From contig JAOABA010000023.1 in the NCBI GenBank assembly GCA_026418625.1, positions 1-41,072 of the forward strand: DNA of 41,072 nt, written 5' to 3'. This DNA is from Candidatus Kapaibacterium sp. GTDB lineage: Bacteria > Bacteroidota > Ignavibacteria > Kapaibacteriales > UBA2268. Made by a program: the position numbers and the translations under genes. The notes under the pieces are model-generated. The model saw only the letters and a list, made by a program, of their open reading frames with translations. It was not told where the DNA came from and did not search any database. Position 1 is the first letter of the stretch, and each line of letters starts with the position of its first letter. Below, in pieces: positions 3,551 through 41,072 of the stretch.

Positions 3551-3859
3551 TTCTCAAAACAATTAATCAGCAAATATGCAATTTAAGTATAAGAGTTTAA
3601 ATTACAATAGAATAAGAAATCAGCTGATTTGCTTTTATGTTTTGATGATAAAATGGGAGTTTAGATCAGATATATGACAAAATAAAGTTTTTAATTTCAA
3701 TAGATCTTGGATAAGTTATGATTTTATTGAAGATAAGGTTATAATTCTTGATATTTTAATATGATATTGGTTATTGTTGTAAGGTATGACTATATCAACT
3801 GAAAAATTGGCCCTGAGTTCTTTAATTACTCCGGGCAATTTTCAGTTGATTGTTGAAAA
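3551..3859. other. Intergenic region (309 bp) with palindrome and large hairpin, no gene seen
   Basis: No convincing open reading frame on either strand. It should contain the promoter of the DUF1343 gene and the end of the six-gene operon. Visible structure: a perfect 14-bp palindrome AAATCAGCTGATTT at 3618-3631, about 70 bp upstream of the DUF1343 start, and the hairpin at 3796-3848. The remainder is AT-rich without obvious motifs. Confidence 0.6.
3796..3848 (-). terminator. Large interrupted hairpin ending the six-gene operon (possible terminator)
   Basis: CAACTGAAAA (3796-3805) pairs perfectly with TTTTCAGTTG (3839-3848). Further inside, TTG/CAA, CCC/GGG and GAGT/ACTC also pair, giving about 20 base pairs around a 9-nt loop. 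It begins 11 bp past the stop of the last gene of the minus-strand operon. There is no T-run after it on either strand, so it may be an RNA-stabilising 3' hairpin or a rho-assisted terminator rather than a classic intrinsic one. Confidence 0.5.
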
Positions 3860-4042
3860 TTAAAACACCTTTAAAATGGAATCAACAATTGCTTTACCAC
3901 CAGTTATAAGTTTGAGCTGTGCTTCAGCTAGTTTTTTAAGTTTGTCTCTATTACTATCATTTGAGTAAACCGTTAGAACTTTTTTCTCCTGCTTCATATA
4001 TTTATCAGGACGGAATGCTACTTCAATTTTAATTTCTGCCAT
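3860..4042 (-). CDS. Small hypothetical protein (60 aa), last gene of the six-gene operon
   Basis: Family not recognised. The predicted shape is two short beta strands (IKIEVAF, KVLTVYSND) followed by a helix (DKLKKLAEAQLKLITGGKAIVDSIL). The gene upstream has the same order of strands and helix (LVEVRL, VQIEVFAD, FLKKAVEAKISQLISKK), so the two may be diverged duplicates. No signal peptide or membrane segment is seen, so it is probably cytoplasmic. It starts 12 bp after the previous gene and is certainly in the same transcription unit. The ATG at 4040-4042 is preceded by AAAGGATTTCT, a usable ribosome binding site. Confidence 0.6.
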   Translation of the reverse strand: MAEIKIEVAFRPDKYMKQEKKVLTVYSNDSNRDKLKKLAEAQLKLITGGKAIVDSILKVF

Positions 4043-4054
4043 AGAAATCCTTTA

Positions 4055-4249
4055 TCAATATTTTTTAATTATCTTCCTATTAAGAATAGTAACTTTTTTT
4101 GAAATTAATTGACTAATTTTAGCTTCCACAGCTTTCTTGAGAAATGGGTTATCTGAATTCATACTGCCATTTGTATCGGCAAATACTTCAATTTGTACTG
4201 GCTTCTCATTTGCCAATCTAACTTCAACAAGATATCGAGATAGAGCCAT
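4055..4249 (-). CDS. Small hypothetical protein (64 aa), beta-beta-alpha type
   Basis: Family not recognised. It starts MALSRYLVEVRLANEK, has a second strand (VQIEVFADTNG) and ends in a helix with basic residues (FLKKAVEAKISQLISKK). The frame is open for eight more codons upstream from a TTG overlapping the lipoprotein gene. I chose the ATG at 4247-4249 because AGGAAAGG lies 7 nt before it. The protein is likely soluble. Spacing is 13 bp from the lipoprotein gene and 12 bp to the next small gene, whose predicted fold is similar. Confidence 0.6.
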   Translation of the reverse strand: MALSRYLVEVRLANEKPVQIEVFADTNGSMNSDNPFLKKAVEAKISQLISKKVTILNRKIIKKY

Positions 4250-4262
4250 TATAAAACCTTTC

Positions 4263-4523
4263 CTATTTTTCAATAATAATAATTTTACCTTCTAAAATAC
4301 CCAAAGAGCTATTCTCTATGAATTCAAATTTTTCTGGTTTTTCGTTTTCTTTAGCATCTCGTGTTAATATCCAGAGATTATCTTCTTTCCAAGTAATATT
4401 AACAAGTTTTTTACCAGGGTCAAGATTAATAGTACTTGTGCCCCCAAATGTTTTAGATCTTTGCTGTTGAGTACATGCTACCAAAGCAATGATACACAAT
4501 AATAATATAAAAAGCTTTTTCAT
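4263..4523 (-). CDS. Small lipoprotein (86 aa)
   Basis: MKKLFILLLCIIALVACTQQ is a clear lipoprotein signal with lipobox LVAC; Cys17 would be lipidated. The mature part is only ~70 residues: FGGTSTINLDPGKKLVNITW, EDNLWILTRDAKENEKPE, then NSSLGILEGKIIIIEK. This pattern (GGT, kLVN.tWKedxLW.LTR, S.G.LEG.i.I) resembles small lipoproteins that I recall from phage and bacterial genomes; their function is unknown to me. It is the only exported protein of the operon and sits between two soluble small proteins, so it may be a partner or immunity-type component; that is speculation. Confidence 0.65.
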   Translation of the reverse strand: MKKLFILLLCIIALVACTQQQRSKTFGGTSTINLDPGKKLVNITWKEDNLWILTRDAKENEKPEKFEFIENSSLGILEGKIIIIEK

Positions 4524-4531
4524 ATAATACC

Positions 4532-4759
4532 TTAGAGTTTAATAAAGAAATTTAAAAATTTATCTTCAACCATTGTTTTTATTGTTTTTTCTAATGCAAT
4601 TTGTAATTCTTGTGAAATAATGTTTAATTGTTCTTCAATGAAGCTTTCAATTTCATTTTTTAATTGCTCTTTTACTTTTAAAAACTCAATTTTGCAGAAT
4701 TCTTCAATTTCATCTTTTAAATAATATTGTTTATCAACTTCAATTTTGTATTCTGTCAT
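4532..4759 (-). CDS. Small helical hypothetical protein (75 aa)
   Basis: Family not recognised. It is rich in Glu, Lys, Ile and Leu with heptad-like spacing (FCKIEFLKVKEQLKNEIESF, EEQLNIISQELQIALEKTI), so most of it should be a helix or coiled coil after a short strand (YKIEVDKQ). No membrane segment or signal peptide. It lies 10 bp after the tail-anchored protein gene and 8 bp before the lipoprotein gene in the same operon. Confidence 0.55.
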   Translation of the reverse strand: MTEYKIEVDKQYYLKDEIEEFCKIEFLKVKEQLKNEIESFIEEQLNIISQELQIALEKTIKTMVEDKFLNFFIKL

Positions 4760-4769
4760 TATTTAGTCC

Positions 4770-5822
4770 TTATGTGAGTAATAAAAATGCTATAACTATT
4801 ATTATTATTAAAACGAAAGCCCATATAAATTTTCTTTTTAGCTTTTTCTTTCTAAATGTAATAATTTTATTTACCACAACATTTTCTTTTAAATAATTTT
4901 CATAGAATGAATCGAGTTGTTTTTTATTTTTAAAAAATGGATTAATTAAACTTGAGTACCTTAAATTTCCAAATTCCTCAAGAAATTTAATAATTTCCTT
5001 ATTTTGTAGAGCAGGCTTTTTAAGGTCGTTGTCATTTAATAGTAAAAGAGAACCTATAGATATGGACTTTAAATATGAAAAATTTAATGCTGTTTGAGGA
5101 AAATTACTTTCTTGAAATAATATCCTTATATCTTCATTAAGTGTATTTCTAAGTGTAGGAGTTTTCAAATTACTTTCATGTTCACCCTTGAGCCAAAAAG
5201 AAAATTCCTCAATCATAAAATTACATAATTTTTCTGTAAAATTCATATTATGATATGCTATAAAAATGTCTTTGGCAGAACCTTTTATATACTCATATCT
5301 GTCTAATAAACAACTATCTATTTCAACCTTAACTTCATTTTTACAAAATTCGAGCAACTTATTTTTATTGTTCGTAATTTTTGGAAGGAGTTCTTGAATT
5401 TTATCCTTCTTTGCTTTAGCTAATTCTTGTTTCTTAGGTAAAAGTTCTTTTAAGGATTTCTCTCGTTTTTTATTTGCTTTCCACTGACCGTATTTTGATA
5501 TTGCTACATTTAACAAATCACCGATACCACTTATTAAAGTACCAGCGAGTTCAGTACTAGCATTGATTAATTCACCACCTGCCTTTGAAAATTCCTTGTA
5601 TTTAGACTTTTTGATAATTGAAGTTGCAAGTTTTCCAACTGATTTATTTGAAACTATTGAACCTACTGAATCAAAAACCTGACTAATGTTATCTCCGATT
5701 TGTTGAAATTTATCTGAAATTTCTAGTGCTTTTGCTGTTATTTCATTTACTTCATTTTGTAATGATTTAGCACTTTCTAATAATTCTTCTATTTCTTTTT
5801 GTTTTTGTGTTGATGTGATCAT
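4770..5822 (-). CDS. Helical tail-anchored membrane protein of unknown family (350 aa)
   Basis: No recognised domain. Residues ~1-60 are amphipathic helix (ELLESAKSLQNEVNEITAKA). Residues ~80-110 form a Gly/Ala-rich hydrophobic stretch (AGGELINASTELAGTLISGI, then GDLLNVAIS). Residues ~115-170 are a Lys/Glu coiled coil. Residues ~170-315 are more globular. The C-terminus is a basic patch (RKKKLKRKF) followed by one membrane helix at 332-350 ending at the stop. The basic patch and absence of a signal peptide predict a C-tail anchor with the body in the cytoplasm. The internal hydrophobic stretch resembles membrane-inserting hairpins of helical pore formers only in general character; I cannot show that function. 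It starts 3 bp after the preceding helical gene, so the two products probably work together. Confidence 0.6.
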   Translation of the reverse strand: MITSTQKQKEIEELLESAKSLQNEVNEITAKALEISDKFQQIGDNISQVFDSVGSIVSNKSVGKLATSIIKKSKYKEFSKAGGELINASTELAGTLISGIGDLLNVAISKYGQWKANKKREKSLKELLPKKQELAKAKKDKIQELLPKITNNKNKLLEFCKNEVKVEIDSCLLDRYEYIKGSAKDIFIAYHNMNFTEKLCNFMIEEFSFWLKGEHESNLKTPTLRNTLNEDIRILFQESNFPQTALNFSYLKSISIGSLLLLNDNDLKKPALQNKEIIKFLEEFGNLRYSSLINPFFKNKKQLDSFYENYLKENVVVNKIITFRKKKLKRKFIWAFVLIIIIVIAFLLLT

Positions 5823-5825
5823 GTT

Positions 5826-6341
5826 TTATAAACTCATTAATTTCATCATCATTGAACTTAAATGATCTGACCAATCTCTAACCTGAGTTATTAATTTTGA
5901 CCTCAATTCTAAATCTATCAATTCACAGTTTTTTGAATCAATTGCCAATGCTTTATCGAGAATTTTATCAATTCTATTTGAAATATTATCTAATTGCTTC
6001 TCTAATATTGGTGCATTTGTTTTGAATTTTTCTAAACTAATTTGAGAGTCTTTAAGGTACATTTCCAAATTCACATCCATCTGCTTCATTATAAGGTCAA
6101 TCTCTTTTACGGCCCTAACAGTATCTAAAGTACATTGCCATATTATTGATACATTCTGAATTACATCATTAGTAATTTTCATTGCAGAATTAATTTCCTG
6201 AAAAGTATCTTTGATTTTATTTACAGAATTATCAAATCTATTTAAAAACTTTTCAGTATCATCTGTTAGTTTTAATAAATTTGAAGAGGAAAGAATTTCA
6301 TTTGAAATTCTTCTTTTTTCAGCAATTGATAATTCATCCAT
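5826..6341 (-). CDS. Helical coiled-coil hypothetical protein (171 aa), first gene of the six-gene operon
   Basis: No recognised family. Nearly all of it is predicted helix with long coiled-coil stretches (FLNRFDNSVNKIKDTFQEIN, ILEKQLDNISNRIDKILDKA). No signal peptide or transmembrane segment. Its general build resembles the N-terminal helical part of the tail-anchored protein encoded 3 bp downstream, suggesting the two form a helical complex at the inner membrane. The ATG has GGAG 6 nt upstream. A TAATTTTG box that fits the Bacteroidota -7 element lies at 6380-6387, about 40 bp before the start, so this is the likely first gene of the transcription unit. Confidence 0.6.
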   Translation of the reverse strand: MDELSIAEKRRISNEILSSSNLLKLTDDTEKFLNRFDNSVNKIKDTFQEINSAMKITNDVIQNVSIIWQCTLDTVRAVKEIDLIMKQMDVNLEMYLKDSQISLEKFKTNAPILEKQLDNISNRIDKILDKALAIDSKNCELIDLELRSKLITQVRDWSDHLSSMMMKLMSL

Positions 6342-6379
6342 TTTTTCTCCAAGTAATTTTCTATATTTTTTTATAAATA

Positions 6380-6387
6380 CAAAATTA
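6380..6387 (-). promoter_or_regulatory. Possible Bacteroidota-type -7 box (TAATTTTG) for the six-gene operon
   Basis: TAATTTTG fits the TAnnTTTG consensus of the Bacteroidota primary sigma factor and lies about 40 bp upstream of the first gene of the operon. No matching TTTG -33 box is found at the usual spacing, so this is tentative. Confidence 0.3.
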
Positions 6388-6487
6388 CTGAATCGTCAAA
6401 TTAAAAAATTTGAACTTAGTAAAGTAAGTATATGACTTTCTATTTGAAGTAAAATTCTATATAATCAATGCTATTTTTTAGAGCGGT

Positions 6488-7249
6488 TTAAACCGATTTT
6501 ACATACCTTTTCAATTTGTCCACAAAATCACTTTTCTGGTGTTGAGAAATTTGGAGGTCTGTGCCATCAGTTAGTATCAAATGAGGTGATCTGCCAGACA
6601 CATATTTTTTTACATATTTCAAATTAACGAGATGTTTGCTGTGTATTCTAACGAAATCAAGTTCAACAAGAATTTTATGTAGATGTTGAAGTGGTTTGGC
6701 TATCATTAGTTTGCTTCCGTTATTAAAAAACACAGTTGAATAACTGCTGTCTGCTTCACAACGAACAATTTCAGAGATATTAAATATATTTTGCCCATCA
6801 GAAGTTGGAAGTAAAATTTTCTGTGGTTTGTCCTGTAAACTTTCTTTGAGAATTCGTAATTTTTCATCGAATTTATTATTGTCTATTTTCAAAGTGAATC
6901 TATTTATAGCTTCTTTCAACTTTACAGGGTCTATTGGTTTAAGCAAGTAGTGAATTGCAGAAACTTCAAAAGCACGAACAGCATACTCACTATAGGAACT
7001 TGTAAAAATAACTTCAAATCTAGTGTATTTTGCTGATTCAAGAATTTCAAATCCATTTCCTTCGGGGAAATTAATGTCAAGAAAAACAAGGTCAGGTTTA
7101 ATATTATTTATTAATTTAATTCCTTCTTTAATAGTTGTAGCTTTTCCCAAAATAGAAATATTCTGAAATTGCTTTCTTATTTGAATTTCTAATGCTGAAC
7201 TGAAATTCTCTTCATCATCAATAATTACTGCTTTAATTGTTTCACTCAT
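6488..7249 (-). CDS. LytTR-family response regulator
   Basis: A 253-residue DNA-binding response regulator. The receiver domain covers ~1-120 with acidic pair Asp11-Asp12, phosphoacceptor Asp58 (LVFLDINFPEG), Thr83 (FTSSYSEYA) and Lys104 (LLKPIDP), so all key residues are present. Residues ~150-250 are a LytTR DNA-binding domain (ILLPTSDGQNIFNISEIVRC, then FVRIHSKHLVNLKYVKKYV). Such regulators bind direct repeats in promoters. It follows the TPR histidine kinase gene by 31 bp and is surely its partner. The start has AGGAAA 5 nt upstream. Targets are unknown; direct repeats at 9587-9608 upstream of the kinase are a candidate autoregulatory site. Confidence 0.9.
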   Translation of the reverse strand: MSETIKAVIIDDEENFSSALEIQIRKQFQNISILGKATTIKEGIKLINNIKPDLVFLDINFPEGNGFEILESAKYTRFEVIFTSSYSEYAVRAFEVSAIHYLLKPIDPVKLKEAINRFTLKIDNNKFDEKLRILKESLQDKPQKILLPTSDGQNIFNISEIVRCEADSSYSTVFFNNGSKLMIAKPLQHLHKILVELDFVRIHSKHLVNLKYVKKYVSGRSPHLILTDGTDLQISQHQKSDFVDKLKRYVKSV

Positions 7250-7280: not shown

Positions 7281-9119
7281 TTAATTACTTTCAATTGGTA
7301 GTGTAAAGAAAAAATTGGTGCCAACATTTGCTTCGCTTTCAAACCAGATTTTGCCATTATTTTTTTCGATAAACTCTTTACACAGACTCAAACCTAAACC
7401 AGTTCCTTTTTCATTGTTGGTTCCTATTGTTGAATATTTTGATTCTAACTTGAAGATCTTTTCTTTGACTTCATCACTAATGCCAACACCAGTGTCCAAA
7501 ACTGATATCTCAACAAAACCATTTTCAGAATGACCACTTATAATGACTTGACTTTTTGGGCTTGAAAATTTTATTGAGTTTGAAATTATATTTCTGATTA
7601 CTACACTTATCATATCCTTGTCTGCATATGCAGATAGGTTTGTTCCAACGTTATTGACAATCTTAATTTCTTTTAATTCTGCGAATTCCTTAAGATTGTT
7701 TATTTCTTGATTAATTAATTTTGTAAGAACTATGTTTTCCTGAATCGGCTCAATTCCTTTAGACTGTAAATTTGCCCAAAGTAAAAGATTTTCCAAAAGC
7801 AACAGTAAATTATCAGAAGACTTTTTAAGGGTGCCAATATACTTCTTAATTTCATCAATTGTGAAATCATCATAATAATTATTCAGTAATGAAATCAGGT
7901 CGTTAAATGAGTTTAGTGGTGTCCTTAAATCATGCGAAATAATTGAAAAAAACTTATCTTTTGTGGAATTGAGTTGAGCTAATTTGCTATTTATTGTTTG
8001 TATTTTCTTGTTATTTCTGATCTTAATATTAAGAACAACTATAATACTAATAATTATTAGCAATGATATCAGAACCAAAAATATGTAAAATTGGTTTTTA
8101 AAAGCCTGTTCTTTAATCAAATTATTCTTTTCATTCTGAAACTTTTCCTCTTGAGCTTTTAGTTCAAACTTTTTTTCAGCTTTGCTTGTATTATACTTTG
8201 AGAGTGTGTCTTTCCAAGCTGAAAGCTTTTCTGAATACAATAGAGCAGTATTAAAATCTTTTTTGCTTTTATAATATGAAATCAGTTCAGTCAAAAATTC
8301 GGGTTTTCCATCAATTGAATTATATCTGCTAATAATATCAAGACCAGTATTTATAAATTTTTCTGCAAGTTTGTTCTTATTTAGTTTGTGATATGTAAGC
8401 CCAATGCTAAGATAAGTCAAACAAATATGATGACTGTCACTAGTCATACTGTACAAATCAAAACTCTTCTTATAATACTCCAAAGCCTTATCAAACTGCT
8501 TTCTCTTGAAGTAAACATCTGCTATGAATGAATAATTATCAGCTAATCCCATTTTATCATCAAGTTTTTGAAATATCCCAATAGCTTTTTTAGCATAAAA
8601 TTCAGTATTATCAAAATCATTTGAACTGCTATAATAAGCTGCGAAATTCCCGTAAATAATTGCTTCGAGATGAATGTTTTTAGTTCTATGATAAATATTA
8701 AGAGCTTTGTTGTAATATTCAAAAGCTTTTATTGTGTCGTCGCATTCTGAGTAAATATTACCAAGTAAAACCAGAGTCTTCCCAATTCCATCCTCGTCTT
8801 TTATTAACTTATAACTATCAATGGCTAGACTCGAATATTCAAGTGCCTCGCTATAATATCCATTGAGCCAAGAAAATTTAGTGAATTCATAATAAGCAAG
8901 AGCTTCTTTATCTTTAAGCTTGTTCTCTTTTGCAATTTTCAAATATTCATTTAAGTATTTATAAAGTTCAGTATTTGTTCTTGAAGAATGAGCTTTGAGT
9001 AAAATTGAATCTAATTCCTTGTTGATGTCTGATCTGACTCGATTGTTGGGAAAGAAAAGAAAAATGACGAAAACCAAGATAAAACAATCGATGACCGTAA
9101 TTTTTCTTTGAATAGTCAT
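7281..9119 (-). CDS. TPR-containing membrane sensor histidine kinase
   Basis: A 612-residue kinase. A hydrophobic N-terminal segment (~8-23) exports the sensor region, which has about six TPR-like repeats at ~70-300 (for example AFEYYNKALNIYHR, ALEYYKKSFDLYS). A coiled coil at ~315-340 leads to a membrane helix at ~344-364. The cytoplasmic part has a HisKA dimerisation domain with phosphorylated His396 (FFSIISHDLRTPLN) and an HATPase domain: N box ISNSIKFSS (~512-520), DTGVGIS (~542-548) and GTGLGLSL (~572-579). All catalytic motifs are intact. It is followed by the LytTR regulator. LytTR regulators more usually pair with kinases of the LytS/His_kinase type, so a HisKA partner is worth noting, although similar TPR kinases are common in Bacteroidota. 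The ligand is unknown. Confidence 0.9.
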   Translation of the reverse strand: MTIQRKITVIDCFILVFVIFLFFPNNRVRSDINKELDSILLKAHSSRTNTELYKYLNEYLKIAKENKLKDKEALAYYEFTKFSWLNGYYSEALEYSSLAIDSYKLIKDEDGIGKTLVLLGNIYSECDDTIKAFEYYNKALNIYHRTKNIHLEAIIYGNFAAYYSSSNDFDNTEFYAKKAIGIFQKLDDKMGLADNYSFIADVYFKRKQFDKALEYYKKSFDLYSMTSDSHHICLTYLSIGLTYHKLNKNKLAEKFINTGLDIISRYNSIDGKPEFLTELISYYKSKKDFNTALLYSEKLSAWKDTLSKYNTSKAEKKFELKAQEEKFQNEKNNLIKEQAFKNQFYIFLVLISLLIIISIIVVLNIKIRNNKKIQTINSKLAQLNSTKDKFFSIISHDLRTPLNSFNDLISLLNNYYDDFTIDEIKKYIGTLKKSSDNLLLLLENLLLWANLQSKGIEPIQENIVLTKLINQEINNLKEFAELKEIKIVNNVGTNLSAYADKDMISVVIRNIISNSIKFSSPKSQVIISGHSENGFVEISVLDTGVGISDEVKEKIFKLESKYSTIGTNNEKGTGLGLSLCKEFIEKNNGKIWFESEANVGTNFFFTLPIESN

Positions 9120-9164
9120 AATAACCTAATTCAATATTTGACTTACTTGCTCAAACAAAATTTC

Positions 9165-9205
9165 TTCCCTTTTAAAATCAATGTTCTGACCTTTTTTAAA
9201 GGGAA
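9165..9205 (-). other. Inverted repeat 46 bp upstream of the kinase start
   Basis: TTCCCTTTTAAAA (9165-9177) and TTTTTAAAGGGAA (9193-9205) form a 13-bp inverted repeat with one mismatch and a 15-nt spacer. It lies after the small ORF at 9219-9302 and before the kinase gene. It could be a weak terminator for the small ORFs or an operator for the kinase operon; the sequence does not decide. Confidence 0.4.
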
Positions 9206-9218
9206 ATCCTACTGGCAA

Positions 9219-9302
9219 TTAAGTAAGAATTTCTGCGAGAAAACCGTCTCTATCTTTCTTGAGAATTTTTACATCTATTAAGCCACTATCAATAGTTTTC
9301 AT
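9219..9302 (-). CDS. Possible small ORF (27 aa) upstream of the kinase
   Basis: Starts with ATG at 9300-9302 behind AAAAAGG with 4-5 nt spacing and reads MKTIDSGLIDVKILKKDRDG then FLAEILT and TAA. Residue composition looks protein-like, but the frame is very short. It could be a genuine small protein, a leader peptide for the kinase operon, or the tail of a decayed gene whose earlier part is the 37-codon ORF at 9332-9445, which is in another frame. No family recognised. Confidence 0.3.
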   Translation of the reverse strand: MKTIDSGLIDVKILKKDRDGFLAEILT

Positions 9303-9331
9303 TTAACCTTTTTCAATCTTGAAAAATAATC

Positions 9332-9445
9332 TTATAGTATATCTTTACCAAATTTAATTTCTTTAGTTATATTTTCCAAGATGAATAAATTCGGATAGTT
9401 TTCGACTGGCTGGTCATGATTATAAATATGATACACTTTTTTCAT
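9332..9445 (-). CDS. Possible small ORF (37 aa) between guaA and the kinase operon
   Basis: ATG at 9443-9445 is preceded by AGGAGATA, a strong Shine-Dalgarno although close to the start. It reads MKKVYHIYNHDQPVENYPNL then FILENITKEIKFGKDIL and TAA. The composition is protein-like, without a signal peptide. After the stop the same frame continues DYFSRLKKVK to a TGA that overlaps the ATG of the next small ORF, which makes either a pair of coupled small genes or a decayed single gene possible. No homologue recalled. Confidence 0.35.
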   Translation of the reverse strand: MKKVYHIYNHDQPVENYPNLFILENITKEIKFGKDIL

Positions 9446-9586
9446 TATCTCCTATTCAATATCGGGACTAAAATTTCCTATTCCTACTTTATTCTCATGT
9501 TATTGAATAACTTTCAATTTGTTTGTAAAAACCCTTTTCAAATCTTACGTTTTCATGTTTATAAATATACATTCAAATATTCAAAA

Positions 9587-9668: not shown

Positions 9669-11210
9669 TTATTCCCACTCAATAGTCCCCGGTGGTTTGC
9701 TAGTAATATCATAAACAACTCTGTTAATGCCTCTGACTTCGTTAATTATACGGTTTGATATTTTGGCGAGGACATCATTTGGAAATTCGAACCAGTCCGC
9801 TGTCATTCCATCTGTTGAGGTAACAGCTCGCAAGGCACAGACATTTTCGTAAGTTCTTTCATCGCCCATAACTCCTACGCTTGAAACTGGCAATAGAACC
9901 GCAAACGCCTGCCAGATATGATTATAAAGCCCTGCATTTCTAATTTCCTCCAAATAAATATCATCTGCCTTCCTTAGAACTTCCAACCTTTCTTTGGTTA
10001 CTGCACCAAGAATTCTAATAGCAAGACCGGGTCCGGGAAATGGATGACGATTGACAAACCATTCTGGAACTCCCAATTCCCTGCCAACTGCTCGAACTTC
10101 GTCCTTGAAAAGCTCTCGGAATGGTTCAAGAATCTTAAGGTGCATTTTTTCGGGAAGCCCACCAACGTTATGATGAGATTTTATAGTTGCTGATGGACCT
10201 TTGATTGAGACAGACTCAATGACATCAGGATATAATGTCCCTTGAGCAAGCCATTTAGCATCATTGAATTTTTTGGCTGCTACTTCGAATAAATCAATAA
10301 AGGCAGTTCCGATAATTTTTCTCTTCAATTCAGGATCTTCCACTCCGTGCAACCTGCTTAAGAAAAGTCCAGACCCATCAACAAGTTCAATTGGGATATT
10401 GAATGAGTCTTTAAATAAATTAACGATAGTTTGACTTTCATTTGTTCGCATCAATCCGGAGTCAATGTGAACGCAGTGTAGTTTATCACCCAAAGCTTTA
10501 TGAAGGAGAACAGCTGCCACTGTTGAGTCAACTCCTCCGCTCAAAGCAAGGATAACACCTTCATCTCCTACTAAGTTTTTTATTTTTTCGATTGTTGAAG
10601 TTATAAAAGATTGTGCATTCCAAACTTCTTTGCATCCGCAAATCTTTCTTACGAAATTTTCAAGGATTTTTTTTCCCTCAGTAGTATGATGAACTTCAGG
10701 ATGAAATTGGACGCCATAAATCCGCTTATCGGGCGAACGAACAGCACATATTTCGGAGTTTTCTGATTTAGCAATTATTTCATATCCTTCGGGTGCTTTT
10801 GTTAGGTGATCGCCGTGGCTCATCCAAACTTGTGTATTTTGACTGACCCCAGCAAAAATATCCTCAAAATTTAAAATCTCGAGAGAAGCCCTGCCGAACT
10901 CTCTCCTTGCTGCTTTATCAACAGCCCCACCTTTTTGATAAGCGATAAGTTGAAGTCCATAACATATACCAAGAACGGGAATACCCATAGCAAAAACATC
11001 GAAAGAAGGTATTGGAGCACCATCTTCATAAACGCTTGAAGGACCACCAGAAAGAATTATTCCAGTAGGGTTTAGTTCTTTAAGTTTTTCAATCGAAATA
11101 TTAAAAGGATATATTTCTGCATATACTCCAATTTCTCTTACTTTTCTTGCTATTAACTGGGTATATTGAGAACCAAAGTCAAGAATGATTATTTTTTCAG
11201 TTGATTGCAT
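9669..11210 (-). CDS. guaA: GMP synthase (glutamine-hydrolysing)
   Basis: Converts XMP to GMP using ATP and glutamine in purine biosynthesis. The 513-residue length is normal. The N-terminal class I glutamine amidotransferase carries nucleophile Cys in [13 protein letters not shown] and the His/Glu pair in [10 protein letters not shown]. The ATP pyrophosphatase domain has the P-loop [11 protein letters not shown], and the C-terminal dimerisation domain ends [17 protein letters not shown], the conserved end of the family. It starts at the ATG at 11208-11210, beginning [20 protein letters not shown]. The gene lies 9 bp behind the toxin gene of a toxin-antitoxin pair on the same strand, an unusual neighbour. 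purL, another purine gene, is elsewhere in the window. Confidence 0.98.
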
Positions 11211-11219
11211 TTTTAATGC

Positions 11220-11708
11220 CTAATCTTTAGTATGAAATTCTGTTATGATATATTCATATAAATCTTTATTTATCCAAAAGCCACTTTGGATTAAGTCATC
11301 AAGAATTTTCTTTAAATCAGTAAATAATCCCTTATTTTTTGCTTTTATTAAAACACCTATGGTTCCGGTTATTTTTAAATTTTTTTCTTTAGCAACTTTC
11401 CTACCCCAGAAGTCATCCATCAAAACCAAATCTGCATTTATTTCCTCAGCAAGTAAAATTGTAGAAGCTTCCCCAATATCTAATTGATTTAATAATTTTG
11501 AAATCTTTGAACGATCTTTTATATTAATTGTCTTTATCCATTCATACTTATCAACATCGGAACCCGGTTTGTTAATACCATTCAATAACTCTTCTTTAAC
11601 TTCATAAGTTATAAAAACTTCATTGTAAAGTTCGTAAAGTAAGTGTAATTGATTTATTGAGGATAAAGCAATAATAACGGTTGAATTTGTTACAGTTACA
11701 TCAGGCAT
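11220..11708 (-). CDS. DUF3368 PIN-like toxin of a toxin-antitoxin pair
   Basis: A 162-residue PIN-superfamily protein of the DUF3368 type, expected to be an RNase toxin. Motifs: N-terminal VTNSTVIIALSSINQLHLL (the first acidic PIN position is Asn8, as in some DUF3368 members), VKEELL with the conserved Glu, LDIGEASTILLAEE and the central acidic DLVLMDDFWGRKVA, then ITGTIGVLIKAKNKGL. It overlaps the UPF0175 gene by 8 bp, the usual antitoxin-first order. The Asn might weaken metal binding; the remaining acids are present. Function is inferred from family and pairing. Confidence 0.85.
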   Translation of the reverse strand: MPDVTVTNSTVIIALSSINQLHLLYELYNEVFITYEVKEELLNGINKPGSDVDKYEWIKTINIKDRSKISKLLNQLDIGEASTILLAEEINADLVLMDDFWGRKVAKEKNLKITGTIGVLIKAKNKGLFTDLKKILDDLIQSGFWINKDLYEYIITEFHTKD

Positions 11709-11952
11709 TATAAATATCTTGGTTTATTTCTTCTTTTGAAAGGTTAAAAATAGAAATTTTATATTTGCTTAGAAGATTTATAAAATCCGCCTTTGACATA
11801 TTTGCAAGTTTTGCACAAGATCCCAAGGAAAGTTTTTTCAACTCAAAATATTTTATTGCTGCTAAGGTTTTAAGTTCAAGTAAAAATTCTTCCTCACTCA
11901 AATTTAGCATATTAGATATGTCTTCTGGAAATTCTAATTCTGCTGTTTTCAT
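11701..11952 (-). CDS. UPF0175 family antitoxin
   Basis: An 83-residue protein with the UPF0175 pattern: ELEFPEDISNMLNLSEEEFL, LKTLAAIKYFELKKLSLGSC and AKLANMSKADFINLLSKYKI, i.e. a short strand, a helix, then a helix-turn-helix-like unit that would bind DNA. UPF0175 proteins typically precede DUF3368 toxins, as here with an 8-bp overlap. It is likely to neutralise the toxin and repress the pair's promoter. No clear Shine-Dalgarno precedes the ATG at 11950-11952. Confidence 0.85.
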   Translation of the reverse strand: MKTAELEFPEDISNMLNLSEEEFLLELKTLAAIKYFELKKLSLGSCAKLANMSKADFINLLSKYKISIFNLSKEEINQDIYNA

Positions 11953-40475: not shown

Positions 40476-41072
40476 TTATTTTTTTGACATATCCACTTTC
40501 TGTTTCTTTGCGGGATAGGCTCCATGGCAAGTTACACAATTTTTTGTTTCTGCGAATTTATCAATTCCACCCGGATGGATAAAATCAAGCCCCATACTTG
40601 ATTCCTGCATCGGTTGATTAGGAACTTGCTGAGTAACAATTGTATGACAAGCGTTGCAATCCATCGTTATCACTTTGCCTTCATCACTAACATGTTTTCC
40701 GTCATGGCATCTGTAACAACCGGGGCTATACATATGACCGATATGATTTGGATAATTCTTCCAATTGGCTTTCATATATGGGAAATAATTCCTTAAATAA
40801 ATTCTATTGAGGCTATTGACAGCTTGTTCAATTGACGCTTGTTTTGTATTTGCAATTTCAGGATAATTGTTTTTATAATAATTTGTTAAATAATCTTTAA
40901 TGTCTTTGTAAGAAGTTTCTCTTGATTGAACATAGGACTCAAGAACCTGAACTCCAAGATTTTTAATATATGGCAAATTTCTATCAATTAAATTTGATGA
41001 CATATAAGTATTAATAACTCTATTAGGCTGCTGATATATATGAGAGGGTCTATTATGACAATCAATACAATC
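40476..41072 (-). CDS. Multihaem cytochrome c (NapC/NirT-like), partial
   Basis: The last 199 codons of a gene continuing past the right edge. Four CxxCH haem c sites are visible: CIDCH in the upstream part (DCIDCHNRPSHIYQQPNRVI), then CYRCH, CNACH and CVTCH near the C-terminus. IDCHNRPSHIY is typical of membrane-anchored periplasmic multihaem cytochromes that pass electrons from quinol to terminal reductases. The methionine at 41001-41003 is internal, not a start, because the frame and a haem motif continue upstream. N-terminal anchor and remaining haems lie outside the window. Confidence 0.85.
   Translation of the reverse strand, partial: DCIDCHNRPSHIYQQPNRVINTYMSSNLIDRNLPYIKNLGVQVLESYVQSRETSYKDIKDYLTNYYKNNYPEIANTKQASIEQAVNSLNRIYLRNYFPYMKANWKNYPNHIGHMYSPGCYRCHDGKHVSDEGKVITMDCNACHTIVTQQVPNQPMQESSMGLDFIHPGGIDKFAETKNCVTCHGAYPAKKQKVDMSKK

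Follow-up and report, generated by a model that had tools for sequence, protein, structure and literature searches.

We analysed a compact operon of six genes (A171, B350, C75, D86, E64 and F60, in order of transcription) on the minus strand of a 41,072-nucleotide stretch of Candidatus Kapaibacterium sp. (contig JAOABA010000023.1, assembly GCA_026418625.1; hereafter the window). Based on a comparison with a genome of another genus in the same family (G005), we propose that the operon is exchangeable accessory cargo, with an anti-phage or an envelope function, in a two-component-controlled slot downstream of guaA. We give this reading a probability of roughly 45%. It is supported by the same gene order, a conserved leader and F60, and a replaced interior in the two genera, and by a segment bounded by guaA repeats in one of them.

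The proposed slot in two genera

F60 was present in 2 of the 123 genomes of the order, the source genome and G005, and is 98% identical in amino acid sequence and 94% identical in nucleotide sequence between them; no match was found in the phage, viral contig or plasmid collections. The G005 locus (L070) follows the same order as the window: guaA, a small gene, a histidine kinase with a TPR region, a LytTR response regulator, the conserved leader, a set of genes and then F60. Where the window has A171 to E64, G005 has two genes, one for a protein of 94 residues (ATG start) or 104 residues (TTG start) with two hydrophobic segments, and one for a protein of 266 residues with none. Of the six operon proteins, only F60 matches the G005 locus at an expect value (E) of 0.01, and the two G005 cargo proteins had no match in the window at E 1. 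The 266-residue protein has a partial match to the candidate defence family PDC-S48 (E 2.5e-6 over 97 residues), which is a weak hint.

The nucleotide alignment of the two loci, in bins of 150 columns, has an identity of mostly 0.73-0.92 from about 9281, downstream of guaA, to 6339, with dips to 0.65 and 0.69 in two bins of the kinase sensor region. Past the A171 start codon, identity falls to 0.43-0.56 within that gene, and similarity resumes for a single stretch of 185 bp that is approximately F60 alone (94%). The shared order is local: at E 1e-8, the 75-kb G005 contig has no match to any of 25 further genes of the window. Ten more contigs were checked in genomes G013, G022 and G001; a kinase match was present on nine, and an F60 or LytTR match at E 0.001 on none.

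Since G005 keeps the promoter region and the last gene while the interior is replaced, the conserved unit is the kinase, the regulator, the leader and F60. In these two genomes A171-B350-C75-D86-E64 is, as judged by sequence comparison, exchangeable cargo between the leader and F60. An earlier note on the window had described a compact six-gene operon that behaves as one module. The operon is real, with all six open reading frames (ORFs) at the coordinates given there and gaps of 3-13 bp; however, as a unit of conservation it comes apart in G005, where only the leader and F60 are kept.

The features of the locus are as follows (all on the minus strand):

9669..11210, guaA (GMP synthetase), whose 3' end carries the attachment core GAGTGGGA at 9673-9680
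7281..9119, sensor histidine kinase (Pfam and hydrophobicity), 78% amino acid identity to the G005 gene in the same place
6488..7249, LytTR response regulator (Pfam), 88% amino acid identity in G005
6342..6487, conserved non-coding leader/promoter region of the operon (alignment to G005)
5826..6341, cargo gene A171, a probably helical coiled-coil protein (ORF; no credible relatives found)
4770..5822, cargo gene B350, whose product is probably helical and has a C-terminal membrane anchor (332-350) besides a Gly-rich stretch
4532..4759, cargo gene C75, a small protein
4263..4523, cargo gene D86, a lipoprotein of phage family phrog_12728 (profile match)
4055..4249, cargo gene E64, a small protein, possibly a distant paralogue of F60
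3860..4042, F60, which closes the slot and is conserved
3780..3860, terminator-like hairpin after F60, its sequence not conserved in G005

Switch, leader and operon boundaries

The kinase has, in order, a hydrophobic segment (7-25), the TPR region, a second hydrophobic segment (345-363), and HisKA and HATPase domains. The 146-bp leader is non-coding and identical to G005 in 121 of 150 alignment columns; it holds a 34-bp exact block (6409-6442) with the palindrome ACTTA-N6-TAAGT. The gaps between the six genes are 3, 10, 8, 13 and 12 bp. We took the ATG with AGGAAAGG upstream as the start of E64; the listed alternative, a TTG start at 4273 that gives 72 residues, is disfavoured because it would overlap D86. 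Codon usage in the operon is ordinary for the window, and C75 (20% GC) is the most AT-rich of the genes listed.

The operon had also been said to be bracketed by a candidate promoter box and a large 3' hairpin. The hairpin just 3' of F60 stands out from shuffled sequences (-25.5 kcal/mol against -10.4 +/- 2.35, z = -6.4) and the leader is conserved, but a scan for sigma70-type promoters performed at chance level in the window (18 found, 19.3 expected) and a terminator scan listed no site at the hairpin. The window has no tRNA detectable by ARAGORN and no Rfam family at gathering scores. Between guaA and the kinase, the gene at 9129-9475 is split into several frames in the window and intact in G005 (about 112-121 residues).

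D86 belongs to a phage lipoprotein family

Judged by its sequence, D86 is a clear member of phrog_12728, a largely phage-carried family without an assigned function: residues 2-85 match positions 6-95 of the 98-position profile (E = 5.4e-23), a match that covers the mature domain. By the lipobox rule it is a lipoprotein, with an N-terminal hydrophobic segment followed by LVAC-T, as the earlier note had called it. Alignment with phage relatives is near full-length, with conserved GG, N.TWK, LW and G..EG-type positions, and an alignment of 11 family members has 12 invariant columns.

Relatives were found in 13 of 50,697 phage records (nine named Bacillus, three Brevibacillus and one 'Phage f2b1', with duplicate entries of one phage included), in two plasmid records and in two genome contigs. 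One search of IMG/VR gave two loci, of which L014 matches in the signal peptide only, and another gave eight, with one contig common to both. Among 395 genomes of the phylum, D86 occurs in two, the source genome and G004, where it sits amid many small ORFs on a contig judged phage-like by eye. The neighbours of D86 in 17 other loci were compared with the remaining five proteins of the operon and matched none of them (best E 0.07). The neighbour groups common to at least three D86 loci come from L016, L039, L040, L046, L047 and L049, and once L038, which are Bacillus-type phages and one Brevibacillus phage.

A structure model of the family (predicted local distance difference test, pLDDT, 79) shows a signal helix followed by a small beta fold. 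No solved structure matched it by fold (best E 0.27), and a profile search gave one chain at E 0.15. Matches in a viral structure library were led by a phage protein without characterisation (49% identity, E 8e-10); the second, 60 residues long and also from a phage, is annotated as outer membrane protein assembly factor (45% identity, E 0.037), a name that serves as a label only.

The other cargo proteins

Hydrophobic segments were scanned on the Kyte-Doolittle scale over 19 residues with a cut of 1.6. B350 has a single one, its last 19 residues (332-350), which bears out the C-terminal anchor ascribed to it earlier, but its internal Gly-rich stretch, described as hydrophobic, lies below the cut. 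A171 and C75 have none. A single-sequence structure model of B350 is all-helical at low confidence (pLDDT 46.9), too poor for a fold search, including one for the ClyA/YaxAB-like fold of helical pore-forming toxins, and no PDB sequence match was found.

All six proteins were compared with the Pfam, NCBIfam, PADLOC and PHROGs profile libraries. The five other than D86 gave weak matches only, none at a curated cut-off; the strongest of these linked C75 with a SAP-like Pfam model at E 1.5e-4, which falls short of the curated threshold, and B350 matched a type III translocon subunit model over residues 87-145 (E 0.0016, also below cut-off). At E up to 1, PADLOC returned A171 alone, through coil-like stretches (ZorA, E 0.0018; PbeC, E 0.0024), and nothing for the other five. 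The view that these are unrecognised proteins thus holds for five genes but not for D86, with its catalogued family.

Sequence relatives, as far as searched, were also scarce. B350 was found in 1 of 60 related genomes, the source genome itself, and not in the viral contig, phage, plasmid or genome contig collections. At E 0.01 it matched in 6 of 395, itself included; the other five (a protein kinase, two proteins with a repeat-like C-terminal half, a TetR-like regulator and a sensor-like protein) were judged spurious by eye from their ORFs. A171 matched in 3 of 60 at E 0.01, itself and two weak matches, and in 1 of 395 at E 0.001, itself, with no match in the phage, viral contig or plasmid collections. 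E64 matched in 3 of 395 at E 0.01, itself included, and the other two were discarded as weak and interrupted by in-frame stops; phages and viral contigs held no match. C75 had no match in the two collections searched, viral contigs and phages. A gene order conserved in other genomes, which had been proposed as a check on the operon, was not found for the five cargo genes as far as searched, but the slot itself is kept in G005.

The small genes C75, E64 and F60 are possibly of common origin, to judge from their sequences. The alignment of E64 with F60 is weak (27% over 48 residues, E 0.09). C75 and F60 have near-identical starts (MTEYKIEV and MAEIKIEV), with a 23-nucleotide repeat at 83%.

The guaA site

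In G005 a pair of identical 40-bp repeats, which correspond to the guaA 3' end and run in the same orientation 14,227 bp apart, encloses the slot. The published core GAGTGGGA is present in these repeats and in the 3' end of guaA in the window. PMC7775301 describes an element integrated at the guaA 3' end with a 20-bp repeat containing GAGTGGGA, and a table in PMC5704250 lists three elements at the guaA 3'-end site. The same 14.2-kb segment of G005 also encodes an N-terminally shortened ArdC-type antirestriction protein, an Mpi-type serine recombinase and an excisionase-like helix-turn-helix (HTH) protein. The recombinase prompted a search for invertible DNA, but only weak inverted repeats turned up in L070 9500-17200 (longest 24 nucleotides at 75%). 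In the congener G001 other genes lie downstream of guaA and there is no match to NamZ, and an empty site is therefore not definable there.

Some further observations concern the surroundings of the site. At L070 8991-11364 an FGE-sulfatase/Lcl_C gene ends short at the start of the truncated ArdC gene, the two ORFs overlapping by 35 bases, which resembles a second junction inside the island. A third copy of the guaA attachment core, with one mismatch, at L070 3573-3585 is compatible with tandem island accretion. In the window a UPF0175/DUF3368 pair (11220-11952, Pfam), likely a toxin-antitoxin module, lies directly upstream of guaA, at the flank opposite to the island site.

Divergence of the slot

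As a yardstick for divergence we used two genes, NamZ (52% amino acid identity between the window and G005) and the gene at 40476-41003 (62%), the latter met by chance on an arbitrarily picked contig. Of the fourfold-degenerate sites, 93 of 225 differ in the slot genes (kinase, regulator and F60), a smaller share than the 68 of 111 in NamZ and the 40476-41003 gene (Fisher p = 7e-4). The lower number of differences suggests that an exchange of the unit took place after the two genomes had separated. F60 by itself (6 of 22) does not fall significantly below the LytTR gene (32 of 66; p = 0.13), and the sensor half of the kinase (36 of 70) is only somewhat below the small yardstick. GuaA, with 132 of 187 fourfold sites different, was dropped as a yardstick from the main argument because guaA of G005 has 54% GC, against 27-45% in the other 1-kb bins of its contig. 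From its GC content, this gene (L070 17037-18575) looks as if it had itself been replaced.

Weighing the explanations

Several observations count against exchangeable cargo in a controlled slot. The slot was seen in two genomes, the search for F60 having covered the order and the viral, phage and plasmid collections, and a 32-base pattern from the leader had no exact match among viral contigs. That the LytTR protein binds the leader is assumed. GuaA is 80% identical in the two genomes, and by that measure the identity of the kinase is unexceptional. The ORFs listed for the G005 segment, inspected by eye and not in a systematic search, showed no tyrosine integrase, and the window has a single copy of the guaA repeat, a second having been looked for and not found. 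No cargo gene had a convincing defence-family score in PADLOC. No function is assigned to phrog_12728, and the family is also found on a few plasmids and bacterial contigs.

If the slot reading is right, the kinase would sense a change in the envelope through its TPR domain, presumably periplasmic, and the phosphorylated LytTR regulator would switch on the leader and so bring about expression of the cargo. At the inner membrane, A171 would probably assemble into a helical complex with B350, held there by the B350 tail anchor. The membrane-associated complex suggested by the earlier note is plausible in this respect, given the probable helical pair, the tail anchor and the lipoprotein. D86, in the envelope, might interfere with DNA entry by a later phage, as superinfection-exclusion lipoproteins do, and E64 and F60 may be small partners or regulators. 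We favour interference with phage entry because the family of D86 is a phage one and because lipoproteins serve phages in shutting out their competitors. A more far-reaching version, which we regard as doubtful, is that guaA islands of this lineage contain a regulated cassette slot not described before, with the switch, leader and near-invariant tail gene as fixed ends and effectors swapped gene-precisely between them, and that the window set is a new membrane-anchored anti-phage system around a phage-captured lipoprotein.

The main rival function is protection from envelope stress. Here the operon would be the cargo of an envelope-stress response, not a defence: a tail-anchored scaffold that stabilizes or reshapes the membrane, a lipoprotein and small adaptors. 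A kinase with two hydrophobic segments and a LytTR regulator immediately upstream would suit this, as would the G005 cargo, in which likewise one protein has two hydrophobic segments and the other none, and the name (though only the name) of the second viral structure match of D86. However, complete replacement of the cargo between genera would be unusual for housekeeping, and D86 is from a phage family; we consider this explanation somewhat unlikely. Less probable still is a two-part membrane-active toxin, A171 with B350, accompanied by the immunity proteins E64 and F60 and directed at competitors or acting in abortive infection. The helical-looking pair, a Gly-rich stretch like that of helical pore formers, the tail anchor, the very weak translocon match of B350 and the small proteins encoded downstream are all consistent with it, but the Gly-rich stretch is under the hydrophobicity cut, a C-terminal anchor is ill-suited to a secreted pore former, the B350 model is poor and no Pfam or NCBIfam family was reached at cut-off.

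That the six genes are chance neighbours, unrelated orphans that drifted into one transcription unit after lateral sharing of F60, would account for the ordinary codon use and for the lack of relatives of five of the six genes, apart from F60 in one genome. The tight spacing, a replacement whose two limits both fall at start codons, and the conserved leader and tail gene make this quite improbable. We give very little weight to the idea that F60 is the precursor of a signal peptide (a double-glycine-like ...LKLITGG followed by KAIVDSILKVF) that is read by the TPR kinase, which would place the cargo under quorum control. F60 is nearly invariant, the kinase and LytTR regulator adjoin, and F60 has weak matches to two leader models, EntF induction factor (residues 34-51, E 0.02) and a bacteriocin-like leader (34-49, E 0.099), but both are below cut-off and at noise level, the leader peptide of ~48 residues would be unusually long, the possible paralogue E64 has no GG, and the operon encodes no transporter.

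Comparison with known systems

The closest known systems include the guaA 3'-end islands (ICERspD18B and the mobilizable elements tabulated in PMC5704250): G005 shares with them the insertion at the guaA 3' end, repeats with GAGTGGGA, accessory cargo, an excisionase-like HTH gene and an ArdC-type gene. It differs in that no tyrosine or P4-type integrase was seen by eye, while the window differs in its one repeat copy; in addition, the cargo stands behind a two-component pair. Unlike the phrog_12728 lipoproteins of Bacillus and Brevibacillus phages and of IMG/VR, D86 is chromosomal and lies beside a kinase-regulator pair. Ltp of Streptococcus thermophilus phages is a phage-encoded superinfection-exclusion lipoprotein (PMC3952083). 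As a phage-type lipoprotein, D86 is likened to it by working principle alone, not by sequence. The pneumococcal blp locus is also regulator-controlled, with a kinase and a LytTR regulator followed by a variable region, but in the window the kinase is of the TPR-HisKA type and no bacteriocin or transporter was recognized in the operon. In a single search of an open-access library we found no paper combining a two-component system, LytTR, a genomic island and phage defence, which is not proof of absence.

If the slot is general, exchangeable cargo with an envelope or anti-phage role would be coupled to inducible expression under the control of a sensor, and phrog_12728, a phage lipoprotein family that has no function assigned to it, would gain a context. 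In that case the kinase, regulator, leader and F60 would also be a sequence handle with which to retrieve effector sets from poorly studied bacteria, as has been done by mining defence islands.

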